Source: an uncultured Bacilli bacterium
GTDB lineage: Bacteria; Bacillota_I; Bacilli_A; RF39; UBA660
Assembly: GCA_947589435.1 (NCBI GenBank)
Contig: CANQBI010000014.1
Location: 1-40,326 of the forward strand
DNA: 40,326 bases
Direction of reading: 5' to 3'
Position numbers and translations under genes: made by a program. Every line of letters starts with the position of its first letter. Position 1 is the first letter of the stretch. The notes below the pieces were generated by a model. That model worked only from the letters and a program-made list of their open reading frames with translations. It ran no database searches and was not told the origin of the DNA. Below are positions 14,126 to 40,290 of this stretch, one piece after another.

Positions 14126-15874
14126 ATGAACGAAGATTTAAAAATAATTAAAAAGAAATATGGCGAAAAGATGGCTCGTTTTTGTCGTGAATTATTTCCT
14201 ACTTTACTAGAAACGGAAGGTTTACTTTCTATTCTTATGTTAAAGCATTTTGAACCAAGTCATGATTTATATGATGATATAATGGAGCAAAATTTAGAAG
14301 GTGATTTTAAAAATTATATTTATAGCTTTGTTGATGTCGAAAAAAATAATGAGGTAAAAGAAATAAAAACCCCTGAATATTTGTTAAATGATGCTGGGTA
14401 TGACTTATATGAATGTAATAGTGAAGAAGATATTCAAAAGTTTAAAAAGTATTATGCCAAAGGGGAAGAACTTTGTACTTTTCATGGGGGAAGGTTAGAT
14501 AGATGTTATGTTTTCTTTGCGGTAAAAAAGAATGTTTCTGACATCAAAAGAGAAGATTATCCTAACCCTGAAAGACAAGATGAATATGGAACTAGTGTTT
14601 TAAGTATTCAATTTACCAAAGATGAATCGCATACTTTATCTATTAAGAACAGATATAATCACCACGTCAACAACCCCGATAGTACTTATTCAAATAACCT
14701 AGATAATATAATTATAGGTTTAACGGAAAGTTTTGGTAAGTATTATGGTCTCGTTCAACAACATTTAAGAAATGAATTTTCTTTAGATTATTATGTTTTA
14801 GCTAGTGATGGTAAATTTTATAAATATAATCAAGAATTAAATAACATTTATTATTGTCCTAATAATATAATAATTGATAATTTTAAAGTTAAAAGATATG
14901 ATAAAGAAAAATATATTATTTTGGATTATTTTATTTTAGATTTAATTAATAAAAAAATTGAATTATATGATAAAAGCATTAAAGAATCTTTTCCCGATAT
15001 TTTTTTCAATATTGCAAAAATAGAAATAGAAAGAAAAGAAGAGGAAAAAGAAATAAAAATAACTTTACAAAACAATAATATAATAACTATGGCATTAGAT
15101 AAAAATAATCAAATTACGAAATTAGATTATCCTAAAATAAAAATAATTGGAGATTATTTCCTTTCTAGTAATCATTTAATTCATGAATTAAATTTACCAG
15201 TTTTAGAAAAAGTAGGAGATGGTTTTTGTATGTTTAATAGCCATTTAAAAAAATTAAATCTTCCTAAATTAAAAAGAGTTGGTAATGATTTTTTATATTT
15301 TAATGTTTATATAAAAGAGTTAAATTTACCATCTTTAGAAATAGGGGGTAATCATTTTTTAGCTTATAACAAGAAATTGTTAGAATTAAATTTACCATCT
15401 CTTCAAAAAATCGGTCATGATTTTGGAAGGTTTAATCATGTTCTTCAAAAAATTAATTGTCCTCTTTTAGAAGAAGTTGGGGCAGATTTTTTATACTGCA
15501 GTCAATATGTTGAAAAATTAAGTTTACCAAAATTAAAAAGAGCAGGTAATAATTTTATGTATAGAAATGAATGTCTTAGGGTAGTAGATTTACCTTTTTT
15601 AGAGGAAGTGGGCAATAATTTTTTATATTATAATGAAGGTCTTCAAGAATTAAGTTTACCTTCTTTAAAAAGTGCTGGTGAATGTTTCTTGTGTTTTAAT
15701 AAAAAAATTTATAAATTAAATTTACCATGTTTACAAATGGTTGGTAATAAATTTTTATATTTTAATGAAGATTTAAGAGAAATAATTGCCCCTGAACTTA
15801 GGGAATTTCCCTTTCCATTTTTAGAAGATCATCCCTTGATTAGTAGTACATTAAGAAAACAAAAAAGTAGGTGA
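14126..15874 (+). CDS. LRR1: first array protein, about 10 repeats
   Basis: A 582-residue cytoplasmic-looking protein with the complete shared N-terminal domain and about ten 22-residue leucine-rich repeats. It carries the CRELFPTLLE version of the first conserved helix, unlike the next five genes. The CTF motif is followed by HGG instead of NGG. One repeat has LNLPSLEIGG in place of the usual VG turn, and the last (IIAPELREFPFPFLEDH) is a degenerate cap. The start has AAAGGTGG, a stronger ribosome site than in most other copies. Its TGA stop lies inside the ribosome site of LRR2, so the two are translationally coupled. Function unknown; the repeats suggest protein or ligand binding. Confidence 0.93.
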   Translation: MNEDLKIIKKKYGEKMARFCRELFPTLLETEGLLSILMLKHFEPSHDLYDDIMEQNLEGDFKNYIYSFVDVEKNNEVKEIKTPEYLLNDAGYDLYECNSEEDIQKFKKYYAKGEELCTFHGGRLDRCYVFFAVKKNVSDIKREDYPNPERQDEYGTSVLSIQFTKDESHTLSIKNRYNHHVNNPDSTYSNNLDNIIIGLTESFGKYYGLVQQHLRNEFSLDYYVLASDGKFYKYNQELNNIYYCPNNIIIDNFKVKRYDKEKYIILDYFILDLINKKIELYDKSIKESFPDIFFNIAKIEIERKEEEKEIKITLQNNNIITMALDKNNQITKLDYPKIKIIGDYFLSSNHLIHELNLPVLEKVGDGFCMFNSHLKKLNLPKLKRVGNDFLYFNVYIKELNLPSLEIGGNHFLAYNKKLLELNLPSLQKIGHDFGRFNHVLQKINCPLLEEVGADFLYCSQYVEKLSLPKLKRAGNNFMYRNECLRVVDLPFLEEVGNNFLYYNEGLQELSLPSLKSAGECFLCFNKKIYKLNLPCLQMVGNKFLYFNEDLREIIAPELREFPFPFLEDHPLISSTLRKQKSR

Positions 15875-15879
15875 TGAAA

Positions 15880-16968
15880 ATGAACGAAGAATTAAAAATA
15901 ATTAAGAAAAAATACGGCGAAAAGATGATGCATTTCTGTAGGGATTATTTTGCCACTATCTTAGAAACAGATGGCTTACTTTTAAAATTATTGCTCCAAA
16001 ATTTTGAACCAAGTCATGATTTATATGATGATATAATAAAGCAAAATAAAGAAAAAGATTTCGAAGATTTTATCTATAGTTTTGTTTGGGTTGAAGAAAA
16101 TAATAAAGAAATACCCGTTAAAACTCCTAAAGAATTATTAAATGAAGCGGGTTATGATTTATATGAATGTCATAGTTATAAAGATATTAATAAGTTTATA
16201 AAATATTATGCCCCTGGAGAAACTTTATGTACTTTTATGGCTGAAAGACTAGAAAGATGCTATGTTTTTTTTGCTATAAAAAAGAATGTTTCCGAAATAA
16301 AAAGAGAAGATTATCCAAATCCCGAAAGACAAGATGAATATGGAACAAGTGTCATAAGTATTCAATTTACGAGAGATAAAACACATAGATTATCTATTAA
16401 AAATAGATATAATCACCATGTAAGTAATCCTGATTGTACTTTTTCTAATAATTTAGATAATATAATCCCAGGTTTAACTGCCAGTTTTGGTAAGTTCTAT
16501 GGTTTAGTTCAACAATATCCTCATAGTAAATTTGAATTAGAGGGTTATGTTCAAGCAAATGATGGCAAATTTTATAAATATAATCAAGAAATATGCAATA
16601 TTTATTACTGTCCTAATAATATAATCATTGATCACTTTGAAGTTAAAAGATATGCCAAAGAGAAATATATTGTCTTTGATATTTATGTTATTGACTTAGT
16701 AAATAAAAAGATAGAAGAATATGATAAAAGATATATATTTCCACTTTTTGATACAAAGGCCATTATTAAAAAAATAATCATCGTAAATAATGATAATAAA
16801 GAAAAAGAAGTAAGAATCATTTTAGAAGATAATAGTCTAAAAAAATTAATATTAAATAAGTATAATCAATTATTGAAATTTGAAGAACAAGATATTAAAA
16901 TAATAAGCAACGATTTAGATAGTCAGTCTTTATTCAATGAAGATAATATTCTAACTAGAAAAAGATAA
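15880..16968 (+). CDS. LRR2: array protein that has lost its repeats
   Basis: A 362-residue copy with the entire N-terminal domain and linker but no leucine-rich repeats: the chain ends soon after the point where the first repeat would begin (DIKIISNDLD). Its last residues, EDNILTRKR, still resemble the EDFIPRIKR tail of LRR6 and LRR7, so the repeat block appears to have been deleted from inside the gene rather than cut off by a frameshift; no repeat-coding sequence remains before LRR3. The CTF motif reads CTFMAERLERC, changing the otherwise conserved GG. I start it at the ATG at 15880, matching the other copies; GTG and ATG codons just upstream belong to the GGTGATG ribosome site. Confidence 0.9.
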   Translation: MNEELKIIKKKYGEKMMHFCRDYFATILETDGLLLKLLLQNFEPSHDLYDDIIKQNKEKDFEDFIYSFVWVEENNKEIPVKTPKELLNEAGYDLYECHSYKDINKFIKYYAPGETLCTFMAERLERCYVFFAIKKNVSEIKREDYPNPERQDEYGTSVISIQFTRDKTHRLSIKNRYNHHVSNPDCTFSNNLDNIIPGLTASFGKFYGLVQQYPHSKFELEGYVQANDGKFYKYNQEICNIYYCPNNIIIDHFEVKRYAKEKYIVFDIYVIDLVNKKIEEYDKRYIFPLFDTKAIIKKIIIVNNDNKEKEVRIILEDNSLKKLILNKYNQLLKFEEQDIKIISNDLDSQSLFNEDNILTRKR

Positions 16969-17002
16969 AAAATGATTTATACAATGAAAGTTGGTGATGA
17001 AA

Positions 17003-19015
17003 ATGAACGAAGAATTAAAAATAATTAAAAAGAAATATGGGGAAAAGATGATGCATTTCTGCAGGGATTATTTTGCCACTATCTTAGAAACAGATGGCTT
17101 ACTTTTAAAATTATTATTAGATAATTTTGAGCCAAGTCATGATTTATATGAAGATATAATAAATCAAAATAAAGAAGATAAATTTAAAAATTATATTTAT
17201 ACTTTTGTTGATGTCGAAAAAAATAATGAAATAAAAGTAATTAAAAACCCAAAAGAATTGTTAAGTGAAGTGGGCTATGATTTATATGAATGTAAGTGTG
17301 AGGAAGATATTCAAAAGTTTAAAAAGTATTATGCAAAAGGTGAAGAACTTTGTACTTTTAATGGAGGAAGGTTAGATAGATGTTATGTTTTCTTTGCCGT
17401 TAAAAAGAATATTTCCGAAATAAAAAGAGAAGATTATCCTAACCCAGAAAGACAAGATGCATATGGAACTAGTGTGATAAGTATTCAATTTACTAAAGAT
17501 AAAACCCACACTTTATCCATTAAAAATAGATATAATCACCATGTCAACAATCCTGATAGTACTTTTTCCAATAATTTAGATAATATAGTAGAAGGTTTAA
17601 CAGAATCTTTTTCCGAATATTATGGTCTTATCCAACAACATTCTAATGGTAAATTTGAATTAAAAGATTATGTTAGAGCGAATGATGGCAAATTCTATAA
17701 ATATAATCTTGAAATAGATAATGTTTATTATTGCCCCAATAATATTATAATTGATAACTTTGGAGTTAAAAGATATGATAAAGAAAAGTATCTTATTTTT
17801 GATTATTTTATTTTAAATTTAGAAACCAAAAAAATTAAAAAACTTATTCGTGAGAATGATAGTTTTATTCATAGTTTAGGTAAAATTAAAAAAATTACAA
17901 TAACAAATAGAAAAGACTATAAAGAATTATTAATATATAATGAAGATGGATTTATAATAACAATTAATTTAGATAAAGATAACAACATTATTATGGTTGA
18001 TAATCCCTATATTAAAGGAATAAAAGAAAATTATTTGTTTTATAATAGAAAATGTCAAAAAATATATCTTTCTAATGTTGAAAGAATAAGTTATAATTTT
18101 ATGCCCGATAATAATGATAGTTTGGAAGAGATATTTTTACCAAAATGTGAAACTATCGGTGATGATTTTTTATGTTTTAATAACAAATTAAAATCCATTT
18201 ATTTGCCAAATGTAACTTTTATTGGAAACGACTTTTTATGCTCAAATGAAAAAATAAAGTCTGTTTCTTTGCCAAAATGTCGAGAAATTGGCGATAATTT
18301 TTTGTATTATGATTTTACTTGTGAAAAAATGGATATGCCTATGTTAGAAAAAGTAGGAACGAATTTTATGGCAGAAAATGGAAAATTAGAAACTATAAAT
18401 TTTCCTTCTTTAGTTTCTATTGGTGATGACTTTTTATATGATAATGATAAAATAAAAACAATGTATTTACCTAATGTAAGTTATATTGGTAATAATTTTC
18501 TTTATCAAAATATACTTATAGAAGATGTATCTTTACCAAAATGTATAGAAGTTAAAGATGGCTTTTTGCATTCTAATAAAATGTGCAAAAAGTTAGATAT
18601 GCCTATGTTAGAAAAATTAGGACTATATTTTATGAACAGAAATGAAAATTTAGAAACAATAAATCTTCCTTCTTTAACTTATATTCGTGAACATTTTATG
18701 TATCTTAATAATAAAGTAAAGACTGTATATTTGCCAAATATTAAATATATTTATGGTTGTTTTTTTGGAGTTTCTGAAATAGAAACTGCTATCTTATCTA
18801 ATCTTATTTCAATAAATTTTCCTCAGGATTTTAAAATAACCAAGTATTTATATGCTCCCAAATTGGAGAAAGTTTCTGATATTTCCCTTTTGAAAGACAT
18901 TCCTTATTGTTATACGCCCCTTTTAGAGGAATATTGTAATACGGAAGATTTAATTTTTGACTATGAGCAATTATCATTAGAGGAAAATGATAATTTAAAT
19001 AAAAAAAGTAGGTGA
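17003..19015 (+). CDS. LRR3: array protein with a four-repeat superperiod
   Basis: A 670-residue copy. Its N-terminal domain is ordinary, but the linker differs (no SFP-x-TI motif) and the repeats are a separate lineage: the LP core cycles through YLPNV, SLPKC, MDMPML and INFPSL, and this set of four recurs with an exact 88-residue (264-bp) period at 18188-18715. A fifth YLPNI repeat follows, then a divergent C-terminus without repeats. Start at the ATG at 17003, as in the other copies; the in-frame TTG at 16991 overlaps the ribosome site. The TGA stop is inside the ribosome site of LRR4. Confidence 0.93.
   Translation: MNEELKIIKKKYGEKMMHFCRDYFATILETDGLLLKLLLDNFEPSHDLYEDIINQNKEDKFKNYIYTFVDVEKNNEIKVIKNPKELLSEVGYDLYECKCEEDIQKFKKYYAKGEELCTFNGGRLDRCYVFFAVKKNISEIKREDYPNPERQDAYGTSVISIQFTKDKTHTLSIKNRYNHHVNNPDSTFSNNLDNIVEGLTESFSEYYGLIQQHSNGKFELKDYVRANDGKFYKYNLEIDNVYYCPNNIIIDNFGVKRYDKEKYLIFDYFILNLETKKIKKLIRENDSFIHSLGKIKKITITNRKDYKELLIYNEDGFIITINLDKDNNIIMVDNPYIKGIKENYLFYNRKCQKIYLSNVERISYNFMPDNNDSLEEIFLPKCETIGDDFLCFNNKLKSIYLPNVTFIGNDFLCSNEKIKSVSLPKCREIGDNFLYYDFTCEKMDMPMLEKVGTNFMAENGKLETINFPSLVSIGDDFLYDNDKIKTMYLPNVSYIGNNFLYQNILIEDVSLPKCIEVKDGFLHSNKMCKKLDMPMLEKLGLYFMNRNENLETINLPSLTYIREHFMYLNNKVKTVYLPNIKYIYGCFFGVSEIETAILSNLISINFPQDFKITKYLYAPKLEKVSDISLLKDIPYCYTPLLEEYCNTEDLIFDYEQLSLEENDNLNKKSR
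18188..18715 (+). repeat. 264-bp tandem duplication inside LRR3
   Basis: Two successive blocks (18188-18451 and 18452-18715) each encode four 22-residue repeats of different type in the same order. For example, CCAAAATGT of the SLPKC unit lies at 18272 and again at 18536, exactly 264 bases apart. The blocks have since diverged. Confidence 0.8.
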
Positions 19016-19020
19016 TGAAA

Positions 19021-20967
19021 ATGAACGAAGAATTAAAAATAATAAAAAAGAAATATGGCGAAAAGATGATGCATTTCTGTAGAGATTATATGGCCACTAT
19101 TTTAGAAACAGATGGTTTACTTTTAAGTCTATTAGTTAATAACTTTGCCGAATCTCATGAATTATATGATGATATTGCGAGTCAAATGAAAGAAAATGAA
19201 TTTAAAGATTTTCTTTATAGTTTAGTAGATGTGGAAAAAGATAACAAAGAAATACCTTTTAAAACTCCTGAATATTTATTAAGTGAAGCTGGTTATGATT
19301 TATATGAATGTACAAGTGAAAAAGACATTCAAAGTTTTAAAAAGTATTATGCCCCTTATGAAGAGTTATGTACCTTTAATGGGGGAAGACTTAATAGATG
19401 TTATGTTTTCTTTGCAGTTAAAAAGAATGTTTCCGAGATAAAAAGAGAAGACTACCCAAATCCCCAAAGACAAGATGAATATGGCACTAGTGTCATAAGT
19501 ATTCAATTTACAAGAGATAAATCGCATACTTTATCTATCAAAAATAGATATAATCATCATGTAAAAAATCCCGATTGTACTTTTTCAAATAATCTAGATA
19601 ATATAGTAGAAGGTTTAACCGAAAGTTTTAGTAAGTATTATAACCTTTCTCAAGATAATATAAGTAATAATTTTGAATTAAAAGGTTATGTTAAAGCGAA
19701 TGATGGCAAATTTTATAAATATAATCAAGAACATTTTAATATTTATTATTGTCCCAATAATATAATAATTGATAACTTTGAAGTTCAAAGATATGATAAA
19801 GAAAAATATCTTGTCTTTGAATATTTTATATTAGATTTGGTTAGAAAAAGAATAAGAGTCTATGGTTCTAAAATGGAAGATTCTTTTCCTAGTACTTTAA
19901 CAAATATTCATAAAATAGAAATTAAAAGAAAAGAAGAGACTAAAGAAATTAAATTTACATTACAAGATAATAGTGAAGTATTTATAATTTTAAATAAAGA
20001 TAATCAAATAATAAAATTGGAAAATCAAAATTTAAAAGAAGTCCAAGATTATTTTTTAAGTTATGTGCCTTCTTTAGAAGAATTAAATACGCCAAATCTT
20101 GAAAAGGTTGGAAATTGTTTTTTAATGGATAATAATATTAAAAAAATATATTTACCTAACTTACAAAGAGCAGGATGGGGATTTTTGCATGACAATTTTT
20201 CTTTAGAAGAATTAGATTTGCCTTCTTTAGAAGAAGTTGGGGATGACTTTCTTTATTTTAATCAAACAATTCATAAATTAAATTTACCTAAACTAAGAAA
20301 GGTAGGTAATTGTTTCTTATATTATAATAGGGCATTAGAAGAATTATTTTTACCAGAACTTTTAGAAGTAGAAGATGATTTTTTATATACTAATAATACT
20401 TTAAAAGAATTAAGTTTACCTAAGTTACAAAGAGCGGGACGAAACTTTTTGTATATAGGGGCATCTTTAAAAAAATTAAGTTTACCATCTTTAAGGGAAG
20501 TTTGGGGTAATTTCTTAGATGGTGATACTTCTTTAGAAGAAGTAGACTTACCCCTTCTAGAAGAAGTAGGGCCGAAATTTTTGTTTAATAATAATAAACT
20601 TAAAAAATTAGATTTACCTCTTTTAAAAAAAGCAAGAGATGGTTTTTTGGCTTACAATGAAATAATTCAAGAAGTAAATTTACCATCACTCGTAACCTTA
20701 GGCGATTATTTTTTAGCTGATGCCAATGTGTTAAACAAATTATATGGACCATCTTTAGAGAAAGTTGGTAATGCCTTTTTACTTAACAATACTTCTATTG
20801 AAGAATTATATTTACCAAAATTAAAAGAAGTTGGGGCAGATTTTATGCCTCGTAATAAAGTCTTAAAAGAAGCATATTTACCTTCAATAGAAATAATAGG
20901 TAGTCACTTCTTAGCAAAATATCCTGAATCAACTTATGAAAACTTTGGTCATTCAATTAAAAGATAA
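19021..20967 (+). CDS. LRR4: array protein, about 13 repeats
   Basis: A 648-residue copy with one of the longest repeat regions. The N-terminal domain has the CRDYMATILE helix version, and the loop after YY reads NLSQDNISNNFELKGYV, shared only with LRR6. Near its end, bases 20650-20836 are almost identical (3 mismatches in 187) to 24544-24730 in LRR6, including the odd LYGPSLEKVG repeat. Start at ATG 19021 behind a GGTGATG site that contains the LRR3 stop. The tail SIKR is basic, as in most copies, partly because the 3' end doubles as purine-rich leader of the next gene. A 49-base gap follows. Confidence 0.93.
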   Translation: MNEELKIIKKKYGEKMMHFCRDYMATILETDGLLLSLLVNNFAESHELYDDIASQMKENEFKDFLYSLVDVEKDNKEIPFKTPEYLLSEAGYDLYECTSEKDIQSFKKYYAPYEELCTFNGGRLNRCYVFFAVKKNVSEIKREDYPNPQRQDEYGTSVISIQFTRDKSHTLSIKNRYNHHVKNPDCTFSNNLDNIVEGLTESFSKYYNLSQDNISNNFELKGYVKANDGKFYKYNQEHFNIYYCPNNIIIDNFEVQRYDKEKYLVFEYFILDLVRKRIRVYGSKMEDSFPSTLTNIHKIEIKRKEETKEIKFTLQDNSEVFIILNKDNQIIKLENQNLKEVQDYFLSYVPSLEELNTPNLEKVGNCFLMDNNIKKIYLPNLQRAGWGFLHDNFSLEELDLPSLEEVGDDFLYFNQTIHKLNLPKLRKVGNCFLYYNRALEELFLPELLEVEDDFLYTNNTLKELSLPKLQRAGRNFLYIGASLKKLSLPSLREVWGNFLDGDTSLEEVDLPLLEEVGPKFLFNNNKLKKLDLPLLKKARDGFLAYNEIIQEVNLPSLVTLGDYFLADANVLNKLYGPSLEKVGNAFLLNNTSIEELYLPKLKEVGADFMPRNKVLKEAYLPSIEIIGSHFLAKYPESTYENFGHSIKR

Positions 20968-21016: not shown

Positions 21017-22912
21017 ATGAATGAAGAATTAAAAATGATAAAAAAGAAATATGGTGAGAAAATGGCTCATTTTTGTAGGGATTATTTGGCTACGATTTTA
21101 GAAACAGATGGTTTACTTTTAAAATTATTATTAGATAATTTTGAACCAAGTCATGATTTATATGAAGATATTGTAAAGCAAAATAAAGAAGATGAATTTA
21201 AAAATTATATTTATAGTTTAGTGGATGTTAAAAATAACTATAAAGAAAGAGTTATTAAAACACCAAAAGAATTACTTGAAGAAGTCGATTATGATTTGTA
21301 TGAATGTAAGTGTGAGGAAGACATTCAAAAATTTAAAAAGTATTATGCTAAAGGTGAAGAACTTTGTACTTTTAATGGAGGAAGACTTGATAGATGTTAT
21401 GTTTTCTTTGCAGTAAAAAAGAATGTGGATAATATCAAAAGGGAAGATTTTTCCCATCCCGAAAGACAAGATGAATATGGAACAAGTGTTATAAGTATTC
21501 AATTTACTAAAGATAAATCCCATACTTTATCCATAAAAAATCGTTATAACCATCATGTTAATAATCCGGATAGTACTTTTTCAAATAATCTTGATAATAT
21601 TATAGAGGGCTTAACCGAATCTTTTGCTAAACATTATGGTTTAGTTCAATCTCACCTAAATAATGGTTTTGAGTTAAGGGATTATGTTCAAGCTCGTGAT
21701 GGTAAATTATATAAATATAATCAAGAAATAAACAATATTTATTATTGTCCAAATAATATAATTATTGATAACTATGAAGTTAAAAAATTTGAAAAAGAGA
21801 AGAATATTGTTTTTGATTATTTTATTTTAGATTTAGTTAAAAAAGAGGTAAGATTATATGATCAAGATATTATTGAGTCATTTCCCGATACTATTCCTGA
21901 CATTCAAAAAATCGAAATAAAAAGAAAAGAAGAAGAGGAAAAAGAAATAAAAATAACTTTACAAGATAATGGGGAAGTAATAATAGTTTTAGATAAAAAT
22001 AATGAGTTAAAAGAACTAAGTAATCAACATGTAAAAAAAATTGGTAATAATTTTCTCTTTTTTAATAGAAAGTTAATTAAATTAAATCTTCCTAATTTAG
22101 AAGAAGTTGGCAATATATTTTTAGATTATAGTCCGGATTTAAAAAAAATAGATTTACCTAAATTAAAGAAAGTGGGTGATTTATTTATTTCTAGCAATGT
22201 ATTATTACAAGAAATAAATTTACCATCTTTAGAGGAAGTCGGCAATCATTTTTTGTTGTGGGCTAGACTAATCAAAGAAGTAAATTTACCAAGCTTAGAA
22301 AAAGTTGGCAATAATTTTATGAATTGTGACACAAACTTAGAATCTTTCTTGGCTCCTCATTTAAGGGAAGTCGGCAATAATTTTCTCTATGAAAATACGA
22401 AATTAACGGAACTTGATTTGCCAAATTTACAAACGGTAGAAAACTATTTTTTAGGTGAAAATAAGCATATTCATTATCTAAATTTGCCTAAATTACAAAG
22501 AGTAGGTGATGGTTTCTTATCTCGTAACATCTCACTTATAAAATTAGATTTACCCCTTTTGAAAAAAGTAAGAAATAGTTTTTTTGCTTATAATAAAATA
22601 ATTCAAGAAGTAAATTTACCATCACTAGTAACCGTGGGAAATTATTTTTTGGACAATGCTTCATGTTTAAAAGAAATTTATTTGTCTTCTTTAGAAGAAG
22701 TTGGTGATGCGTTTTTATCTCATAATACAACTTTAGAAGAATTAGATTTGCCATCTTTAAAAGTTGTGGGTAATTTCTTTTTCCTTAATAATAAAGTTTT
22801 AAAAAAAGTTAATTTACCATCTTTAGAAAAAATAGGAGGATATTTTTTCTGTTTTCACCCATCATTTAGTGCATATAGCATTAACCAGATAAAAAAAGAA
22901 AGTAGAAGGTAA
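21017..22912 (+). CDS. LRR5: array protein, about 12 repeats
   Basis: A 631-residue copy. The N-terminal domain reads CRDYLATILE and carries FSHPERQDEYG, a variant of the YPNPERQ segment. The repeats are regular; two of them (IIQEVNLPSLVTVG and the following one) match the block shared by LRR4 and LRR6 but are more diverged, so this gene looks like an older participant in the same exchange. Start at the ATG at 21017 with GGTGAG upstream. The 49 bases before it contain only a weak TATAAA, so expression may depend on read-through from LRR4. LRR6 begins two bases after its stop. Confidence 0.93.
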   Translation: MNEELKMIKKKYGEKMAHFCRDYLATILETDGLLLKLLLDNFEPSHDLYEDIVKQNKEDEFKNYIYSLVDVKNNYKERVIKTPKELLEEVDYDLYECKCEEDIQKFKKYYAKGEELCTFNGGRLDRCYVFFAVKKNVDNIKREDFSHPERQDEYGTSVISIQFTKDKSHTLSIKNRYNHHVNNPDSTFSNNLDNIIEGLTESFAKHYGLVQSHLNNGFELRDYVQARDGKLYKYNQEINNIYYCPNNIIIDNYEVKKFEKEKNIVFDYFILDLVKKEVRLYDQDIIESFPDTIPDIQKIEIKRKEEEEKEIKITLQDNGEVIIVLDKNNELKELSNQHVKKIGNNFLFFNRKLIKLNLPNLEEVGNIFLDYSPDLKKIDLPKLKKVGDLFISSNVLLQEINLPSLEEVGNHFLLWARLIKEVNLPSLEKVGNNFMNCDTNLESFLAPHLREVGNNFLYENTKLTELDLPNLQTVENYFLGENKHIHYLNLPKLQRVGDGFLSRNISLIKLDLPLLKKVRNSFFAYNKIIQEVNLPSLVTVGNYFLDNASCLKEIYLSSLEEVGDAFLSHNTTLEELDLPSLKVVGNFFFLNNKVLKKVNLPSLEKIGGYFFCFHPSFSAYSINQIKKESRR

Positions 22913-26708: not shown

Positions 26709-26740
26709 CTGTCAATAATTGTCTTTTAACTAAGTATTAA

Positions 26741-26770: not shown

Positions 26771-26791
26771 AGAATAAAAGATGGTGATAAA

Positions 26792-28797: not shown

Positions 28798-28818
28798 AGA
28801 ATAAAAGATGGTGATAAT

Positions 28819-30309: not shown

Positions 30310-30313
30310 TAAA

Positions 30314-31950: not shown

Positions 31951-33555
31951 ATGAACCAAGATTTAAAAATAATTAAGAAAAAATATGGGGAAAATATGGC
32001 TCATCTATGTCGAGAGTTTTTTCCAACTTTACTAGAAACAGAGGGCTTACTTTTACAATTATTATTAGATAATTTTGAACCTAATCATGATTTATATGAG
32101 GATATAATAAAACAAAAGAAAGAAAATGAATTTAAAGATTTTATTTATAGTTTAGTAGATGTCGAAAAAGAGAATAAAATAAAAGTAATTAAAACTCCAA
32201 AAGAGTTACTTGAAGAGGCTGGATATGATCTATTTGAGTGTAAGAGTGAGGAAGATATTCAAAGTTTTAAAAAGTATTATGCTCCGGGAGAAAAACTTTG
32301 TACTTTTAAAGGTGGAAGACTAGATAGATGTCATGTCTTTTTTGCGGTTAAGAAAAATGTCGATGAAATAAAAAGAGAAGACTATCCTAATCCCCAAAGA
32401 CAAGATAAATATGGAACTAGTGTTATAAGTATCCAATTTACAAGGGATGAATCACATACTTTATCCATTAAAAATAGATATAATCATCATGTTAATAATC
32501 CGGATAGTACCTATTCGAATAATCTTGATAATATAATAGAGGGCTTAACCGAATCTTTTGGAGAGTATTATGGTTTAGTCCAACAACACCCTAATGGTAA
32601 ATTTGAATTAGAAGGTTATGTTAGAGCAAGTGATAACAAATATTATAAATATAATCAAGAAATAAATAATGTATATTATTGTCCCAATAATATTATAATT
32701 GACAACTTTGAAGTTAAAAGATATGATAAAGAAAAGTATGTTATCTTTAATTATTTTGTCTTAGATCTTGTTAAAAAAGAAATAAAAAATTATGACTATT
32801 ATTCTAGTGATTTATTTCCTTCTACTATTTCGAATATCGAAAAAGTAGAAATAAAAAGAAAAGATGAAGGAAAAGAAATAAAAATTATCTTACAAGATAA
32901 TAGTGAAGTAATAATAGTTTTAGATAAAGATAATCAAATGATAAAATTAGATAATCCTAAAATAAAACAAATAGGAGATGAATTTTTAACTTATATTTCA
33001 TCTTTACAAGAATTAAATATGTCTAATTTAGAAGAAGTAGGAGAATCTTTTTTGAGTTATGGTAACAATGTAAAAAAATTGAATTTACCAAAGTTACAAA
33101 TAGTGGGAGATAATTTTTTAAATTATAATTTATCTTTAGAAGAAGTAGATTTACCACTTTTAAGAGAAGTTGGATATAACTTTCTATCTCATTGTCGAAA
33201 AATTTTCCATTTAAACTTGCCATGTTTACAAAAAGTAGGTGGTAATTTTATATTTTTTAATGAATCTTTAAAGGAATTAAATTTACCTTTATTAGAGAAA
33301 GTTGGCAATGGTTTTTTAAATGAAAATATTCGTTTACAAGAATTAAGTTTGCCATCTTTAAAAATAGTAGGTAAGAGTTTTTTAAGAAAGAATTTACATT
33401 TAGAAAAATTATATTTACCTTCTTTAGAAGAAGTTGGTGATGACTTTTTGTTTTGTTATAGAATTTTTAAGAAAGAGAATATTTCTTCTTTTGTAATAGG
33501 AAGTGATGATTTTAATCCTTGGCTTAATATCTCTAATCAAAAAGGTAAAATATAG
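31951..33555 (+). CDS. LRR11: array protein, about 7 repeats with a divergent tail
   Basis: A 534-residue copy. Differences in the N-terminal domain: KKYGENM instead of KKYGEKM, CTFKGGRLDRCH, and DLFECKSEED. About seven regular repeats are followed by a tail (FKKENISSFVIGSDDF then NPWLNISNQ) not seen elsewhere in the array, so its last part may come from a different source or has drifted. It ends KGKI rather than in the usual basic Arg. Start at ATG 31951 with GGTGAT upstream. It is preceded and followed by promoter cassettes, so it is probably transcribed alone. Confidence 0.93.
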   Translation: MNQDLKIIKKKYGENMAHLCREFFPTLLETEGLLLQLLLDNFEPNHDLYEDIIKQKKENEFKDFIYSLVDVEKENKIKVIKTPKELLEEAGYDLFECKSEEDIQSFKKYYAPGEKLCTFKGGRLDRCHVFFAVKKNVDEIKREDYPNPQRQDKYGTSVISIQFTRDESHTLSIKNRYNHHVNNPDSTYSNNLDNIIEGLTESFGEYYGLVQQHPNGKFELEGYVRASDNKYYKYNQEINNVYYCPNNIIIDNFEVKRYDKEKYVIFNYFVLDLVKKEIKNYDYYSSDLFPSTISNIEKVEIKRKDEGKEIKIILQDNSEVIIVLDKDNQMIKLDNPKIKQIGDEFLTYISSLQELNMSNLEEVGESFLSYGNNVKKLNLPKLQIVGDNFLNYNLSLEEVDLPLLREVGYNFLSHCRKIFHLNLPCLQKVGGNFIFFNESLKELNLPLLEKVGNGFLNENIRLQELSLPSLKIVGKSFLRKNLHLEKLYLPSLEEVGDDFLFCYRIFKKENISSFVIGSDDFNPWLNISNQKGKI

Positions 33556-33624: not shown

Positions 33625-35496
33625 ATGAACCAAGATTTAAAAATAATCAAAAAGAAATATGGGGAGAAAATGGCTCATTTTTGTCGTGATTATTTTTCCA
33701 CTATCTTAGAAACTGAAGGTTTACTTTTAAAATTATTATTAGATAATTTTGAACCGAGTCATGATTTATATGATGATATTATAAAGCAATTAAGAGAGAT
33801 AGAATTTAAAAATTACATATATAATTTAGTGAATGTTGAAGATAATAATAAAGAAAGAGTTATTAAAACACCGAAAGAATTACTTGAGGATGCTGGTTAT
33901 GATTTATATGAGTGTAAAAGTGAGGAAGATATTCAAAAGTTTAAAAAATATTATGCTTCTGGGGAAGAGTTATGTACCTTTAATGGCGGAAGACTTGATA
34001 GATGTTATGTTTTCTTTGCTGTTAAAAAGAATGTTTCGGATATCAAAAGAACAAACTATCCCAATCCCCAAAGACAAGATGAATATGGTACCAGTGTTAT
34101 AAGTATTCAATTTACCAAAGATAAATCGCATACTTTATCCATTAAAAATAGATATAACCATCATGTTAATAATCCCGATAGTACTTTTTCGAATAACCTT
34201 GATAATATCACTCCAGGTTTAACCAAATCTTTTGGCGAGTATTATGGTTTAGTTCAACAACACGTAACAAATGGTTTTGAATTAAGAGGATATGTTAAAG
34301 CAAATGATGGTAAATATTATAAATATAATCAAGAAATAAACAATATTTATTATTGTCCCAATAATATTATAATTGATAACTTTGAAGTTAAAAGATATGA
34401 TAAAGAAAAGTATCTTATCTTTGATTATTTTATTTTAGATTTAGTAAAAAAAGAAATAAGATTATATGATAAAAACATTAAGGATTCATTCCCTAGTACT
34501 ATTATTAATATTCAAAAAATAGAAATAGTTAAAAAAGAGATGAATGAAAAAGAAATAAAAATAACTTTACAAGATAATAATAATGTAATTATAACTTTAA
34601 AAGATAATAAAATGCTAAAGCTAGAATATCCTGATTTAGAACAAATAGAAGATGATTTTTTAATTTATAATAGACATTTAAAAGTTTTAAAAATGGCTAG
34701 TTTACAAAAGATTGGTAATTATTTTTTAGATAATAATGGCATACTAGAGGAACTCGAATTACCAAATTTACAAGAAACAGGTTATTGCTTTTTAAGTCAT
34801 AATATGTCCTTAAGAGAATTAAATTTACCTCTTTTAGAATATGTTGGTGGTGACTTTTTAGCTTATAATAGTTCTTTAGAAGAGTTAAGTTTACCTAAAC
34901 TTCGTAAGGCTGGAGATTGTTTTCTATTGGGAAATGAAAAAATTAGAAAATTAGATTTACCATCTTTAGAGATTGTAGGTTCTTACTTCTTATCTAATAA
35001 TTTAAATCTCGAAAAATTAAACTTACCTTCTTTAGAATGGGTAGTAGATGGTTTTCTTTGTGATAACGAATTAATTGAAGAAGTCTATTTACCTAAATTA
35101 AAAATTATTTGTCATTATTTTTTGTGTAGTAATAAAAAATTAAAAAAATTATGGTTACCTAATTTAGAAATAGTGGGAAGTAGTTTTTTAAGGACAAATA
35201 ATTTAATAACTGAATTATCTTTACCAAAATTAAAAACTGTAAGTGATTATTTTATGTTTGAAAATAATTCTTTAAGAAAATTAGATTTACCTGTACTTGA
35301 AGAAATTGGCAATGATTTTTTAGCTAATAATAGTAATTTAGAATATTTAAATATGCCTAATGTTAAAATCAATGGAAATAATTTTTTAAAGAATAATTCC
35401 CAATTTACTAAGAAAGGCTTGGGAAAATTTATGCTTAATATCAATGATTTTTTAGCGAAATGTTTTGATGAAAAGGAAAATAAGAAAGGAAGATAA
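33625..35496 (+). CDS. LRR12: array protein, about 11 repeats, first of the duplicated module
   Basis: A 623-residue copy that aligns with LRR13 along its whole length. It has CRDYFSTILE, FELRGYVKANDGK, and a repeat region starting LEQIEDDFLIYN. It is exactly 22 residues, one repeat, shorter than LRR13: after ELNLPLLEYVG it lacks the unit that LRR13 has there. The C-terminus (LGKFMLNINDFLAKCF, then a Lys-rich NKKGR) is a non-repeat cap shared only with LRR13. Start at ATG 33625 with GGTGAT upstream. The stop lies 4 bases before the next gene's ATG, whose AAAGGAAG ribosome site is inside this coding region. Confidence 0.94.
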   Translation: MNQDLKIIKKKYGEKMAHFCRDYFSTILETEGLLLKLLLDNFEPSHDLYDDIIKQLREIEFKNYIYNLVNVEDNNKERVIKTPKELLEDAGYDLYECKSEEDIQKFKKYYASGEELCTFNGGRLDRCYVFFAVKKNVSDIKRTNYPNPQRQDEYGTSVISIQFTKDKSHTLSIKNRYNHHVNNPDSTFSNNLDNITPGLTKSFGEYYGLVQQHVTNGFELRGYVKANDGKYYKYNQEINNIYYCPNNIIIDNFEVKRYDKEKYLIFDYFILDLVKKEIRLYDKNIKDSFPSTIINIQKIEIVKKEMNEKEIKITLQDNNNVIITLKDNKMLKLEYPDLEQIEDDFLIYNRHLKVLKMASLQKIGNYFLDNNGILEELELPNLQETGYCFLSHNMSLRELNLPLLEYVGGDFLAYNSSLEELSLPKLRKAGDCFLLGNEKIRKLDLPSLEIVGSYFLSNNLNLEKLNLPSLEWVVDGFLCDNELIEEVYLPKLKIICHYFLCSNKKLKKLWLPNLEIVGSSFLRTNNLITELSLPKLKTVSDYFMFENNSLRKLDLPVLEEIGNDFLANNSNLEYLNMPNVKINGNNFLKNNSQFTKKGLGKFMLNINDFLAKCFDEKENKKGR

Positions 35497-35500: not shown

Positions 35501-35788
35501 ATGAAAAAATTAATGATTGTTAAAAAAGAAAATTATGAGTATGTTTTAAAAGACACAGATAATGGGGAATATCAACTTAATATGGAATTTTATAATGTTG
35601 GAAAAGATCCAGAAGTAGGGGACTTTTTATTTATGTCCGAAAAATTATTACAAGAAAATAATGCCGTTTTAAGTTTTGATACATTTGAAAGTGAATATGG
35701 AAGAAAAATTGAAAATGCTTTAGATGATGATATTGTTGTTTTAATGATTAAAGACGAAAAAATATATTTAAAAAGAGTCTATGGTTAA
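35501..35788 (+). CDS. Small acidic protein of unknown function (module copy 1)
   Basis: A 95-residue soluble protein, rich in Glu and Asp: MKKLMIVKKENYEYVLKD opens it, and DDDIVVLMIKDEKIYLKRVYG closes it. It looks like a compact beta-rich domain; I recall similar small proteins in related genomes, ending KRLYG, without known function. The ATG at 35501 is chosen over one at 35465 because AAAGGAAG stands eight bases before it. It is 90 percent or more identical to the first half of the protein at 38084, where the same sequence is fused to a second domain. It lies inside the LRR12-LRR14 operon. Confidence 0.8.
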   Translation: MKKLMIVKKENYEYVLKDTDNGEYQLNMEFYNVGKDPEVGDFLFMSEKLLQENNAVLSFDTFESEYGRKIENALDDDIVVLMIKDEKIYLKRVYG

Positions 35789-35808: not shown

Positions 35809-36147
35809 TTGGATGAAATAAAAAATAAAGATATAACCTTTAAAGAATTAATAGAAATGTATAAAGAATTATATAATAGTTATTATGAAAATGAACTAGG
35901 ATTTGATGAAGAAAAAAGAAAAAAAGTTTTAATTCAAGAATTTAATAAAGTTTTTGGAGTTAGGGGGACAAAAATTAGTCATAAATTAGATTCTCATTAT
36001 GAACTTAAATATTCAAAGTCGAAAAATGTATATACTTTATACTATTTGGAGAGTTATATTGTAAGTGAAATAGATGATAAAGATAAATTAAATTTATTAA
36101 AAAAGAATTTGCTTTGTTATAGTAAAGGAAAGATGGTGATAAAATGA
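35809..36147 (+). pseudogene. Probable 5'-truncated gene, internally deleted (module copy 1)
   Basis: An open frame of 112 codons from a TTG with no ribosome site upstream. Residues 8-55 (ITFKELIEMYKELYNSYYEN onward) then TKISHKLDSHYELKYSKSKN look like the C-terminal part of a larger protein. Compared with the protein at 38084 it lacks 40 residues between SEIDD and KDKLNLL; in the 38084 copy a 9-base direct repeat TAGATGATA flanks exactly that segment, so it was probably lost by repeat-mediated deletion. The final KMVIK is encoded by the ribosome site of LRR13, whose ATG overlaps its TGA stop. It could still be translated. Confidence 0.5.
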
Positions 36148-38081
36148 ACCAAGATTTAAAAATAATTAAGAAAAAATATGGCGAGAAAATGGCTCATTTT
36201 TGTCGTGATTATTTTGCTACTATCTTAGAAACTGAAGGTTTACTTTTAAAATTATTATTAGATAATTTTGAACCGAGTCATGATTTATATGATGATATAA
36301 TAGATCAAGAAAAAGAAGATAAATTTAAAAATTTCATATATAGCTTAGTGAATGTTGAAGATAATAATAAAGAAAAGGTTATTAAAACTCCGCAAGAATT
36401 ATTAGATGAAGCAGGGTATATTTTATATGAATGTAAAAGTGAGGAAGATATTCAAAGTTTTAAAAAGTATTATGCTCCGGGAGAAGAACTTTGCACCTTT
36501 AAGGGCGGAAGACTTGAAAGATGTCATGTCTTTTTCGCAGTTAAGAAGAATGTTTCGGAAATAAAAAGAGAAGACTATCCTAATCCTAATCGTCAGGATG
36601 CCTATGGGACTAGTGTTATAAGTATTCAGTTTACCAAAGATAAATCCCATACTTTATCTATTAAAAATCGCTATAATCATCATGTTAATAATCCCGATAG
36701 TACTTTTTCCAATAATCTTGATAATATTATTTATGGTTTAACCGAATCTTTTGGAGATTATTATGGTTTAGTACAGCAATATAAAACAAATAGTTTTGAA
36801 TTAAGAGGATATGTTAAAGCAAATGATGGTAAATATTATAAATATAATCAAGAAATAAAAAATGTTTATTATTGCCCTAATAATATAATAATTGATCACT
36901 TTGAAGTCAAAAGATATGATAAAGAAAAATATCTTGTCTTTGATTATTTTATTTTAGATTTAGTAAAAAAAGAAATAAGATTATATGATAAAAAAATTAA
37001 AGATACATTCCCTAGTACTATTCTTAATATTCAAAAAATAGAAGTAGTTAAAAAAGAAGAGATTAAAGAAATCAAAATTACTTTAATGAATAATAATGAG
37101 GTAATTATAACATTAAATAAAGATAATCAAATGGTAAAATTAGATTATCCTGATTTAGAACAAATAGAAGATGATTTTTTAATTTATAATAAATGTTTAA
37201 AAGTTTTAAGAATGGCTAATTTACAAAAGATTGGTAATTATTTTTTAAATAGTAATGCTAGACTAGAGGAACTAGAATTACCTAATTTACAAGAAATTGG
37301 TTATAACTTTTTAGTTAATAATGAAGTTTTAGAGGAATTAAATTTACCCAAATTAAAAAAAGTAAAATCTCGCATTTTATCTTATGCTAGTTCTCTTAAA
37401 AAAATTAACTGTCCTCTTTTAGAATATGTTGGTGATGACTTTTTAAATGATAATAGTTCTTTAGAAGAGTTAAGTTTACCTAAACTTCGTCAGGTCGGAG
37501 ATTATTTTCTATCTGAAAATAAAAAAATTAGAAAATTAGATCTACCATCTTTAGAGATTGTAGGTTCTTACTTCTTAGCTCATAATTTAAATCTTGAAAA
37601 ATTATCCTTACCTTCTTTAGAATTGGCAGGAAATGGGTTTATTCATCATAACACATTAATTGAAGAAGTCTATTTACCGAAATTAAGATTTATATATCAT
37701 TCATTTTTATTTAGTAATAAAAACTTAAGAAAATTAAGTTTACCTAATTTAGAAATGGTGGGAAGTAGTTTTTTGGAGAAAAATAATTTAATAACTGAAT
37801 TATCTTTACCAAAATTAAGAGTTGTGAGTCATTATTTTATGCTTGAAAATAATTCTTTAAGAAAATTAGATTTGCCTTCTTTAGAAGAAGTTGGTGATTA
37901 CTTTTTAGCCAATAATAGTAATTTAGAATATTTAAATATGCCTAATGTTAAAATCAAAGGGGTAGAATTCTTACCGAATAATCCTCAATTTACTATAAAA
38001 GGTTTGGGAAAATTAATGCTTAATATCAATGATTTTTTAATAAAAATTTTTGAAAAAAAAGAAAATAATAAAGGAAGATAA
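36144..38081 (+). CDS. LRR13: array protein, about 12 repeats, second of the duplicated module
   Basis: A 645-residue close relative of LRR12, with the same order of repeats and the same cap (LGKLMLNINDFLIKIF). It has one extra 22-residue repeat (KLKKVKSRILSYASSLKKIN region) whose VG and FL positions are weak. N-terminal differences are GYILYECKSEED for GYDLYECKSEED and NPNRQDAYG. Its ATG overlaps the stop of the preceding frame (ATGA), and it shares with LRR14 the same upstream bases CTTTGTTATAGTAAAGGAAA. No promoter is visible, so it depends on the LRR12 cassette or coupling. The next gene starts two bases after its stop. Confidence 0.94.
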   Translation: MNQDLKIIKKKYGEKMAHFCRDYFATILETEGLLLKLLLDNFEPSHDLYDDIIDQEKEDKFKNFIYSLVNVEDNNKEKVIKTPQELLDEAGYILYECKSEEDIQSFKKYYAPGEELCTFKGGRLERCHVFFAVKKNVSEIKREDYPNPNRQDAYGTSVISIQFTKDKSHTLSIKNRYNHHVNNPDSTFSNNLDNIIYGLTESFGDYYGLVQQYKTNSFELRGYVKANDGKYYKYNQEIKNVYYCPNNIIIDHFEVKRYDKEKYLVFDYFILDLVKKEIRLYDKKIKDTFPSTILNIQKIEVVKKEEIKEIKITLMNNNEVIITLNKDNQMVKLDYPDLEQIEDDFLIYNKCLKVLRMANLQKIGNYFLNSNARLEELELPNLQEIGYNFLVNNEVLEELNLPKLKKVKSRILSYASSLKKINCPLLEYVGDDFLNDNSSLEELSLPKLRQVGDYFLSENKKIRKLDLPSLEIVGSYFLAHNLNLEKLSLPSLELAGNGFIHHNTLIEEVYLPKLRFIYHSFLFSNKNLRKLSLPNLEMVGSSFLEKNNLITELSLPKLRVVSHYFMLENNSLRKLDLPSLEEVGDYFLANNSNLEYLNMPNVKIKGVEFLPNNPQFTIKGLGKLMLNINDFLIKIFEKKENNKGR

Positions 38082-38083
38082 AT

Positions 38084-38656
38084 ATGGAAAAATTAATGAT
38101 TGCTAAAAAAGAAAATTATGAGTATACTCTAAAAGATACCGATAATGGGGAATATCAACTTAATATGGAATTTTATAATGTTGAAAAAGATCCAGAAGTA
38201 GGGGATATTCTATTTATGTCCGAAAAATTATTACAAGAAAATAATGCTGTTTTAAGTTTTGATACATTTGAAAGTGAATATGGACGTAAAATTGAAAATG
38301 CTTTAGATGATGATATTGTCGTTTTAATGATTAATGAAGAAAAAATATATTTAAAAACAAAAATTAGTCATAAATTAGATTCTCATTATGAACTTAAATA
38401 TTCAAAGTCGAAAAATGTATATACTTTATACTATTTGGAGAGTTATATTGTAAGTGAAATAGATGATATAAATAAATTATTATCCCAAAAATTTTATGAA
38501 CAAGAATTATTAGATTTAAGTCATTATCCTATTGCTAAAGAAATAAAGGGAATAAAATTAGTTGATAGTATTTCAATATTAGATGATAAAGATAAATTAA
38601 ATTTATTAAAAAAGAATTTACTTTGTTATAGTAAAGGAAAGATGGTGATAAAATGA
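38084..38656 (+). CDS. Fused small protein of unknown function (module copy 2)
   Basis: A 190-residue protein. Residues 1-91 match the 95-residue protein at 35501; from TKISHKLDSHYEL (92 on) it matches the end of the frame at 35809. Aligned with copy 1, about 194 bases (equivalent to 35775-35968) are missing here, which removes the first gene's stop and joins the two frames in phase. It keeps the 40 residues (INKLLSQKFYEQELLDLSHY onward) that copy 1 lost. The start is the ATG at 38084, with the GGAAG at the end of LRR13 as ribosome site. Its TGA overlaps the LRR14 ATG by four bases. No motif for a function is visible. Confidence 0.75.
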   Translation: MEKLMIAKKENYEYTLKDTDNGEYQLNMEFYNVEKDPEVGDILFMSEKLLQENNAVLSFDTFESEYGRKIENALDDDIVVLMINEEKIYLKTKISHKLDSHYELKYSKSKNVYTLYYLESYIVSEIDDINKLLSQKFYEQELLDLSHYPIAKEIKGIKLVDSISILDDKDKLNLLKKNLLCYSKGKMVIK

Positions 38657-40290
38657 ACCAAGATTTAAAAATAATTAAGAAAAAATATGGGGAAAAGATG
38701 GCCCATTTTTGTCGTGATTATTTTCCTACTATCTTAGAAACAGACGGCTTACTTTTAAAATTATTATTAGATAATTTTGAACCAAGTCATGATTTATATG
38801 ATGATATAATAAATCAAGAAAAAGAAGATGAATTTAAAAATTATATTTATAGTTTAGTAGATGTGGAAAAAAATAATAGAATAAAATTAATTAAAACACC
38901 GAAAGAATTACTTGAGGATGCTGGTTATGATTTATTTGAATGTAAAAGTGAGGAAGATATTCAAAAGTTTAAAAAATATTATGCTTCTGGGGAAGAGTTA
39001 TGTACTTTTAATGGCGGAAGACTTAATAGATGTTATGTTTTCTTTGCGGTGAAGAAAAATGTCGATGAAATAAAAAGAGAAGATTATCCTAACCCAGAAA
39101 GACAAGACGAATATGGAACTAGTGTTATAAGTATCCAATTTACAAGGGATGAATCACATACCGTATCCATTAAAAATAGATATAACCATACTGTTAATAA
39201 TCCGGATAGTACTTTTTCCAATAATCTTGATAATATTATTTATGGTTTAACAGAATCTTTTGCAGAATATTATGGCTTAGTCCAACAACACTCTAATAGT
39301 AAATTTGAACTATGGAACTATGTTAAAGCAAATGATGGCAAGTTTTATAAATATACTCAAGAAATAAATAATGTTTGTTATTGTCCCAATAATATTATAA
39401 TAGATAACTATGAAGTTAAAAGATATGATAAAGAAAAGTATATTGTTTTTAATTACTTTATCTTAGACCTCGTAAATAAAGAGGTAAGATTATATGATAA
39501 AATGATTAAAGATTCATTTTTAGATATGGTATCAAATATTAAAAAAATAATAATAAAAAATCAAGATAATAAAGAAAAAGAAATTAGATTTACTTTACAA
39601 GATAATAATGATGTAATTATAACTTTAAACAAAGATAATCAAATAATAAAATTTGAAAATGAAAATGTAAAAGCAATAGGAGATTACTTTTTATATTGTA
39701 TCCAACATTTGCGATACTTAAATTTACCATCTTTACAAGAGGTAGGCAGTTTCTTCTTATTTCGTAATCTTTATTTAGAAAAGTTATCTTTACCGAATCT
39801 TCGAGTAATAGAACATTGTTTTTTAACGAATAACAGTAGTTTAGAAGAAATTAATTTACCATCTTTAGAGAAAGTTGGCGATAATTTTTTGGAACTTACG
39901 AGTTTTGATAAATCGCTTTCAATGCCAAATTTGCAAGAAGTTGGGGATGACTTTTTGAGTAATGCTCTCCATATTAAAGAATTGGATTTCCCACTTTTAA
40001 GAAAAGTTGGCGATAATTTTTGTAGTGAAGATTTTGATGTAAAAAAAATAAATATGCCTAATCTAGAGATAGCAGGATATGGATTTTTGTATTCTGTTAT
40101 GTATTTAAAAGAATTAGATTTACCGAGTTTACAAAAGGTTGGAGACAATTTTTTGTACAATAGTTTTTATTTGAATAATATAAACGTACCTAATTTACAA
40201 GAAATTGGTGAAGGATTTTTAAAAAATAATAGCAAGTTTAATAAAAAGAATGATAGTGTGAAAAGTTTTATGGAAAACAAGACACACTAG
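38653..40290 (+). CDS. LRR14: last array protein, about 8 repeats
   Basis: A 545-residue copy. The N-terminal domain reads CRDYFPTILE and shares NRYNHTVNN and FELWNYV with LRR10. YYCPNN is changed to CYCPNN. The eight or so repeats include LSMPNLQEVG and INVPNLQEIG, and one (DNFLELTSFDKSLSMPNL) is irregular. Unlike LRR12 and LRR13, it lacks their C-terminal cap and ends VKSFMENKTH, so the tandem duplication covered only the 5' side or the repeat region was replaced later. Only 36 bases follow it in the window, without a terminator. Confidence 0.93.
   Translation: MNQDLKIIKKKYGEKMAHFCRDYFPTILETDGLLLKLLLDNFEPSHDLYDDIINQEKEDEFKNYIYSLVDVEKNNRIKLIKTPKELLEDAGYDLFECKSEEDIQKFKKYYASGEELCTFNGGRLNRCYVFFAVKKNVDEIKREDYPNPERQDEYGTSVISIQFTRDESHTVSIKNRYNHTVNNPDSTFSNNLDNIIYGLTESFAEYYGLVQQHSNSKFELWNYVKANDGKFYKYTQEINNVCYCPNNIIIDNYEVKRYDKEKYIVFNYFILDLVNKEVRLYDKMIKDSFLDMVSNIKKIIIKNQDNKEKEIRFTLQDNNDVIITLNKDNQIIKFENENVKAIGDYFLYCIQHLRYLNLPSLQEVGSFFLFRNLYLEKLSLPNLRVIEHCFLTNNSSLEEINLPSLEKVGDNFLELTSFDKSLSMPNLQEVGDDFLSNALHIKELDFPLLRKVGDNFCSEDFDVKKINMPNLEIAGYGFLYSVMYLKELDLPSLQKVGDNFLYNSFYLNNINVPNLQEIGEGFLKNNSKFNKKNDSVKSFMENKTH

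Follow-up and report, generated by a model that had tools for sequence, protein, structure and literature searches.

Constant heads and exchangeable leucine-rich repeat tails in a fourteen-gene bacterial array, with a link to a phage domain family

Why should a bacterium keep fourteen versions of one gene almost side by side? The question is raised by a contig of an uncultured Bacilli bacterium (contig C14 of the 1.44-Mb draft genome G000; CANQBI010000014.1), analysed here whole as a window of 40,326 bases with about 25% G+C. It carries 14 paralogous open reading frames (ORFs), all open and all on the + strand, spanning 14126–40290. All but one encode a constant N-terminal head followed by a variable tail of leucine-rich repeats (LRRs). 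The answer that we put forward, tentatively and at somewhat below even confidence, is that the array is a repertoire of intracellular recognition or effector proteins, taken from a module of phage–bacterium conflict. New here are the relation of the head to a phage domain, a linked companion gene, the swapping of heads and tails, and the fast-evolving positions within the LRRs.

The common head is about 285 residues long, and is followed by a linker of about 50 residues and then by the repeats. The heads (residues 1–300) of the other copies are 73–83% identical to that of copy 14, the copies being numbered along the window. The original prediction, made from the window alone, had proposed a shared N-terminal domain of about 290 residues, which agrees well. 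It had also proposed 0–13 repeats of strictly 22 residues, which is nearly right: repeats are present in 13 of the 14 copies, there are 0 to 14 per copy, and their spacing is 22 residues or multiples of this, with single 21s and 23s. The in-register repeats begin at around residue 332–399, and the numbers per copy were counted with gaps filled. When copies 1, 2, 3 and 14 were scanned against Pfam, the sole LRR family matched was LRR_5 (PF13306), with E 1.1e-13 in copy 3. A simple hydropathy and motif scan (not SignalP) found no long hydrophobic N-terminal segment, LPxTG motif or lipobox in any of the 14 proteins, and the highest 19-residue hydropathy mean (1.83, at residue 613 of copy 8) lies within LRRs. 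As far as sequence tells, the proteins are therefore cytoplasmic, as had been suggested, and are not classical BspA surface proteins: the repeats are of the LRR_5 type, yet come with no visible signal or anchor.

The head was modelled with AlphaFold2 from 70 sequences, giving a confident prediction (pLDDT 90.2, pTM 0.59) with helices up to residue 67, an α/β region at 83–207 and strands at 223–334. Residues invariant in these 70 bacterial and phage heads include G91, E114, C117, R123, R150, D152, Y154, G155, S157, Q162, R176, Y177, N178, H179, D185 and N190. The head has no convincing match in Pfam, NCBIfam, PHROG, PADLOC or PDB sequences; in particular, a clear hit to a housekeeping family, which by the original prediction would have removed the novelty, did not appear in Pfam, NCBIfam, PHROG or PDB sequences. 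Several weaker candidates were set aside. Stealth_CR2, Rpb5_N and similar Pfam families fell below the cut-off, Rpb5_N matching 12 of the 70 heads weakly (best E 0.03). With a deeper profile the best PDB match was 5buv, a 'putative epimerase', but this lies in the β part (E 0.029) and was judged weak. The Cys-x5-Arg of the bacterial heads is reminiscent of a protein tyrosine phosphatase, an idea that was dropped because the Cys–Arg spacing is longer in the phage members. Alignment to PcfJ (PF14284) gave hhalign probabilities of 0.3 or less, using four of the five PcfJ matches found (the fifth was omitted, its frame being on the other strand). That the head might be a Cys/His/Asp peptidase is a guess.

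The head, originally listed as unrecognised, is not without relatives. Twelve loci in viral contigs (L117–L128) encode head relatives that are 28–40% identical, with L120/L121, L122/L123 and L125/L126 apparently pairs of near copies. In L117, L118 and L128 the head domain is found in open frames of 559–577 residues without LRRs, and in L119–L127 it is found inside frames of 3,561–3,759 residues. Six of the latter (L119, L120, L122, L124, L125 and L127) have the complete module: after the head come a linker of similar kind and 10–24 repeats mostly 22 residues apart. In L120 the giant gene is followed by an ORF of 103 residues and then by the terminase large subunit (E 8.8e-74). Searches of phage records were less productive: the window head had no match in INPHARED phages, L120 and L192 had none in phage records, and L117 had none in phage or plasmid records.

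A second, more distant connection came from a profile that included the phage members, which found G091, from the family of the window genome (E 1.5e-5 for one genome, in a search of 392). Here two tandem proteins share the head core (L192:1279–3462); the complete one carries WG repeats (PF14903, E 1.7e-16) and the other runs off the locus. As a single-sequence viral query, L192 found no relative. Searching onward from G091 brought up L200 and L201 and, after them, 27 viral loci (including two repeats of places already present) on contigs of up to 401 kb. The resulting family (L192, L200–L201 and L207–L233) has the motif Cys...Tyr-Gly-x-Ser...Arg-(Tyr/Trp)-Asn-His, and is here named WC...YGxSM...R(Y/W)NH. 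When 26 non-redundant cores, including two of L192, were aligned to the head with hhalign, the probability was 94.7 and P 6.1e-8, with Cys, YGxS and RxNH in the same register; the alignment covers head columns 52–179 only. Earlier comparisons were weaker (P 3e-5 with two sequences, 8e-4 with five). As controls, the best of 40 column shuffles reached a probability of 2.5 (P 0.018), the reversed profile 0.1, and the companion 0.3 or less. On sequence grounds the head core thus belongs, remotely, to a domain family of phages in which LRR or WG repeats are also found.

Nine phage members were scanned against Pfam. Five have WG repeats, one of these with NUDIX and another with a nucleotidyltransferase match; of the others, one has LRR_5, two show by eye an LRR-like repeat of no assigned class, and one has no match. 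The head has therefore been joined to several types of repeat. The phage proteins hold other features. Those at L216:2786–6316 and L219:3626–6307 have a C-terminal part that resembles ADP-ribosyltransferases by eye, although L219 has no Pfam match. The protein at L225:3197–7681 has a second, different domain, 'QWCTAA...KYQFHFE..QFMDEND' (phrog_17056, unknown function, E 8.6e-11), which may be distantly akin to the head core.

The genes have also been shuffled, as the original prediction supposed. A chimera test used 28 of the 38 copies of three genomes (15 + 14 + 9), the start pattern having missed the others, and 27 of these have a long enough tail. The nearest neighbours of head and tail differ for 15 of the 27. 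The clearest mosaic is gene C_6897 of G026, which is 75–100% identical to window copy 14 up to residue 280 (in 20-residue windows) and at most 55% identical thereafter, while it is 90–100% identical to a G032 gene over residues 261–500 and 40–95% identical before 260. The head of copy 14 is 90% identical to that of a G026 gene whose tail is 38% identical. Synonymous divergence (dS) is higher in heads than in tails in eight of nine pairs, the ninth being a pair with an exchanged tail. The pooled ratio of nonsynonymous to synonymous change (pN/pS), from six near-orthologous pairs and repeats fitting a pattern, is 0.23 (0.20–0.27) in heads, 0.32 (0.25–0.42) at conserved LRR positions and 0.88 (0.64–1.25) at nine variable LRR positions.

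Clustering of the neighbouring genes gave one recurrent linked family clearly above the others, a protein of around 95 residues that is absent from the gene list of the original prediction. Mostly this companion follows a head-LRR gene of the same strand at a distance of 0–65 bases, and sometimes it is 5' of one. It is present at 37 of 71 loci, or at 34 of the 55 that have over 400 bases of room; two of those counted, L056 (20 bits) and L082 (17 bits), are weak partial matches. Of 60 genomes, 11 have the head and 8 the companion, each of these 8 being a head carrier (P 6e-8). Within the genus, and excluding the window genome, the figures are 10 of 36 and 7 of 36 (P 1.4e-5). In 395 class genomes the companion occurs in four: with heads in G000, G060 and G337, and, in a genome with no head found (G383), as a fragment covering 34 positions of the model. 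It was not found in the examined flanks of phage loci L117–L128. Its predicted structure is all β except for one short helix (pLDDT 92.8, pTM 0.81). Since one to three companions are common to up to 14 different tails, the companion probably serves the constant head: most likely it binds the head rather than any single LRR, and regulates or stabilises it.

The features of the window are as follows, with the original prediction of 14 adjacent same-strand paralogs holding for number and orientation, but not for strict adjacency, since small non-paralogous genes interrupt the array at 35465–36147 and 38084–38656.

13446..14102, +, NCYTYAL protein, 218 residues, 5' flanking anchor; weak DUF7689; G032 has an 89% identical gene at the corresponding end of its array
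14126..15874, +, head-LRR paralog 1, 582 residues, 11 repeats
15871..16968, +, head-LRR paralog 2, conserved start 15880; head and linker only, 0 repeats
16991..19015, +, head-LRR paralog 3, conserved start 17003; 11 repeats; tail passes the Pfam LRR_5 cut-off
19012..20967, +, head-LRR paralog 4, conserved start 19021; 14 repeats
21017..22912, +, head-LRR paralog 5, 12 repeats
22915..24810, +, head-LRR paralog 6, 12 repeats
24894..26708, +, head-LRR paralog 7, 12 repeats; near-orthologue in G026 (head 97%, tail 94%)
26709..26791, +, example of an 83-bp spacer with conserved TATAAT, a candidate promoter
26741..28735, +, head-LRR paralog 8, conserved start 26792; 13 repeats
28768..30309, +, head-LRR paralog 9, conserved start 28819; 3 repeats
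30275..31867, +, head-LRR paralog 10, conserved start 30314; 9 repeats
31951..33555, +, head-LRR paralog 11, 7 repeats
33625..35496, +, head-LRR paralog 12, 11 repeats
35501..35788, +, companion gene, 95 residues, ORF opening at 35465; all-β predicted fold; C-terminus IYLKRVYG
35809..36147, +, second small gene, 112 residues (152 in G026)
36144..38081, +, head-LRR paralog 13, 12 repeats
38084..38656, +, fusion-like small gene: companion residues 1–91, then in frame the C-terminal part of the second small gene
38653..40290, +, head-LRR paralog 14, 8 repeats; reference for the head comparisons

In copies 2, 3, 4, 8, 9 and 10 the ORF opens in frame upstream of the conserved MN(Q/E)(D/E)LK start. 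The conserved start is 2–83 bases from the preceding stop, except around the small genes, and for copies 2 and 4 a ribosome-site-like stretch, AGTAGGTGA, lies within the 3' end of the preceding gene. Spacers of 83 bp recur at 24811–24893, 26709–26791, 28736–28818 and 31868–31950, with one of 69 bp at 33556–33624, and all five contain a conserved TATAAT, which is a candidate promoter only. Phase-variable expression was considered and set aside on a count of promoter- and terminator-like matches: the former are at chance level over the whole region (110 found against 101 expected; 105 against 104), and the latter numbered 6 where 2.8 were expected and 1 where 2.6 were. The second small gene has no match in Pfam, NCBIfam or PADLOC. 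Compared with the 95- and 152-residue versions in G026 (L046), the pair of small genes looks fused at 38084–38656 and shortened at 35809–36147.

The array runs up to the contig end, and a 15th copy is on a different contig. Contig C25 of G000 begins with a companion, and its right flank (a gene of 557 residues and two NCYTYAL genes) is similar to that of the G032 array; it therefore probably continues the window. In G032 (contig C1), 13 copies lie between an NCYTYAL gene, 89% identical to that of the window, and a companion, which is followed by a gene of 551 residues and two more NCYTYAL genes. The G032 array thus has NCYTYAL relatives (NCYTYAL...HF.R..DGSW) on either side, and C25 has two; the protein of the window has a weak, below cut-off match to DUF7689 (E 0.0051) and is papain-like by eye. 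Other neighbours are paralogous 'MSIFKK...' proteins of 473–506 residues beside the array end in two species (L185:464–3416, on C25; L046:12114–13613), and a protein of 463 residues at 4484–5875, upstream of a two-component system, with no PADLOC match. In the same chromosomal neighbourhood, G016 has a single head-LRR gene with its companion, placed between two-component genes and a glycosyltransferase-like gene where the window has none, and two further copies elsewhere. Copy order and content differ among G000, G032 and G026. The original prediction held that identical arrays in all strains would argue against diversification; between species they differ in copy number and order.

The wider distribution is patchy. 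A scan of a contig collection gave 383 stretches fitting the pattern, 356 of them confirmed, and the best 80 of the 356 correspond to the 71 loci used here, with some genomes contributing more than one. They belong to metagenome-assembled genomes (MAGs) titled Bacilli, Tenericutes, Mollicutes, Firmicutes, 'bacterium', Ca. Caccenecus and Ca. Onthousia, the last two both being Bacilli. Counting the window genome and fragments, heads were found in 36 of 193 family genomes drawn and in 9 of 395 class genomes drawn; one of these nine, G171 (E 6.7e-4), is probably a chance match. Weak matches in G211 and G329 were rejected as chance-like, their frames resembling coiled-coil/ATPase and AAA/FtsH proteins, respectively, by eye. 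Almost every cellular copy has an LRR tail: 21 entries in which the repeat pattern matched few times have LRRs or short or cut tails, with no other domain seen by eye. Some copies are degraded, with stops in G100, G437, G446 and G524 and fragments in G263 and G433.

On the basis of these observations, the array would be a repertoire of proteins that work in the cytoplasm and consist of two parts. The constant one (a helical N-terminus, an α/β core with the invariant Cys, Tyr-Gly-x-Ser and Arg-Tyr-Asn-His, and a β linker) would most likely have the effector role, perhaps with Cys and His forming an active site, and the tail of 22-residue LRRs would be the recognition surface. Duplication would set the copy number, and recombination near the junction would pair heads with new tails. 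The small companion, of which there are one to three per array, most likely would act through the head. The conflict would most likely take place within the cell, against phages or other mobile elements, the tails recognising foreign proteins and the head acting on either the cell or the invader. A recognition repertoire is suggested because the constant head, exchangeable tail, shared partner, patchy presence and changing copy number all fit it, and conflict is preferred to adhesion because the head is related to a phage domain. The phage link points to bacterium–mobile element conflict, and would be compatible with either direction, defence or counter-defence.

Several points weigh against such a role. 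No PADLOC model was matched by seven window proteins or pieces (E up to 1, PADLOC-DB 2.0.0), and the neighbouring genes look ordinary, with no defence genes recognised by eye, no systematic search having been made. Some of the 15 discordances lie between near-equal neighbours. At the variable LRR positions pN/pS is not confidently above 1, and these positions were picked after their entropy had been seen. The companion is missing from 3 of the 11 head-positive genomes (G011, G021 and G027) and from 21 of the 55 roomy loci, and so is not an obligate antitoxin. Conserved polar residues in the head fall short of proof of catalysis, and the sequences would also be compatible with leaderless export.

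The alternative that survives best, though we think it unlikely, reverses the direction. Phages would inject the head-LRR proteins or make them early, in order to bind host proteins, and the bacterial arrays would be former phage genes, a domesticated or resident counter-defence module kept against other mobile elements for superinfection exclusion or as decoys. The complete module is indeed present in phage proteins of around 3,600 residues, one near a terminase gene, and multidomain phage proteins of this type, the polyvalent proteins, are argued to be injected by Iyer et al. (2017; PMC5512222). However, the array is among chromosomal genes with no phage genes nearby (by eye), and the phage heads share only 27–31% identity with copy 14 where they align, so that there has been no recent capture. 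The window proteins do not fit the definition of a polyvalent protein, a multidomain phage or conjugative protein with disparate activities: they are a head plus LRRs on a bacterial contig, two-part and tandemly multiplied. The main text of PMC5512222 contains neither 'LRR' nor 'leucine-rich repeat'. The phage WC...YGxS family shares the plan of a head plus repeats (WG, LRR_5 or other LRR-like), but has WG repeats in five of nine members and in some cases added enzyme domains.

A more specific version of the conflict reading, speculative and a little less probable again, compares the array with innate immune receptors. In gut Bacilli with small genomes, a phage-derived Cys/His effector would be re-paired by recombination with diversifying LRRs under a shared small β-barrel regulator, forming a receptor repertoire free of nucleoside triphosphatase (NTPase) and directed against phages and mobile elements, while phages would deploy the same module, LRRs of the same kind included, within giant proteins as counter-weapons. 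The likeness to NLR/STAND receptors is in plan, not relation: a constant part is joined to a variable, repeat-based recognition part. NLR genes elsewhere cluster and recombine. No NACHT/NB-ARC-type NTPase was found in four window copies (Pfam, E up to 10), nor among the 25 shown of 41 weak Pfam families for the 70 heads (E up to 1). Bacterial NLR-like proteins can use TPR-type repeats (PMC13236601).

Three further explanations seem improbable, each to about the same degree. The first is that this is a set for kin recognition, similar to polymorphic toxins, in which head-LRR proteins reach neighbouring cells and the companion confers immunity. The close 3' position of the companion, where present, and the head/tail recombination would suit this. 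On the other hand, no trafficking domain (Pfam) or secretion signal (hydropathy) was seen, there are one to three companions for up to 14 different copies (the two in G026 being nearly identical), and the variable part is LRR, whereas polymorphic toxins vary in the C-terminal toxin (PMC3482391).

The second is that the proteins are LRR effectors or adhesins of a gut symbiont directed at its host, using an unrecognised export route. Many of the relatives come from gut MAGs, by title, and BspA-type LRR proteins elsewhere are surface proteins, forming large and variable families in small-genome relatives, with at least 28 copies in Ca. Mycoplasma girerdii (PMC5476646). The window proteins share their repeat type, but have no visible signal or anchor in any of the 14, and have in addition a constant head, a 22-residue period and a companion gene. 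The same module is found in phage proteins, and one relative (L108, L114) is in MAG CSSed10_109m, a sediment sample by its name. The PARCEL/DUF285 proteins are likewise repeat proteins of Mollicutes and others, patchy and shuffled, many but not all membrane-targeted (Roske et al. 2010; PMC2996958); their hallmark is a 25-residue tandem repeat, and the period here is 22.

The third, a cryptic family of repeats whose expansion and decay have little functional meaning, would account for the degraded copies, for copy 2 without LRRs and for the 26 of 36 same-genus relatives without a head, but is opposed by the strong purifying selection on the heads (pN/pS 0.23) and by the 14 open ORFs of the window.

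In the literature searched, we found no paper with the motif KNRYNHTV, and recognised no described family of LRR arrays with a phage, polyvalent or WG link. If the conflict reading is true, phages and bacteria alike would use a recognisable head-plus-repeat family, and LRR recognition in bacteria would be tied to phage–bacterium conflict. The array would then be a natural library of swapped heads and recognition surfaces, and the question becomes a testable one: whether particular tails bind particular proteins of phages or mobile elements, and whether the head then acts.

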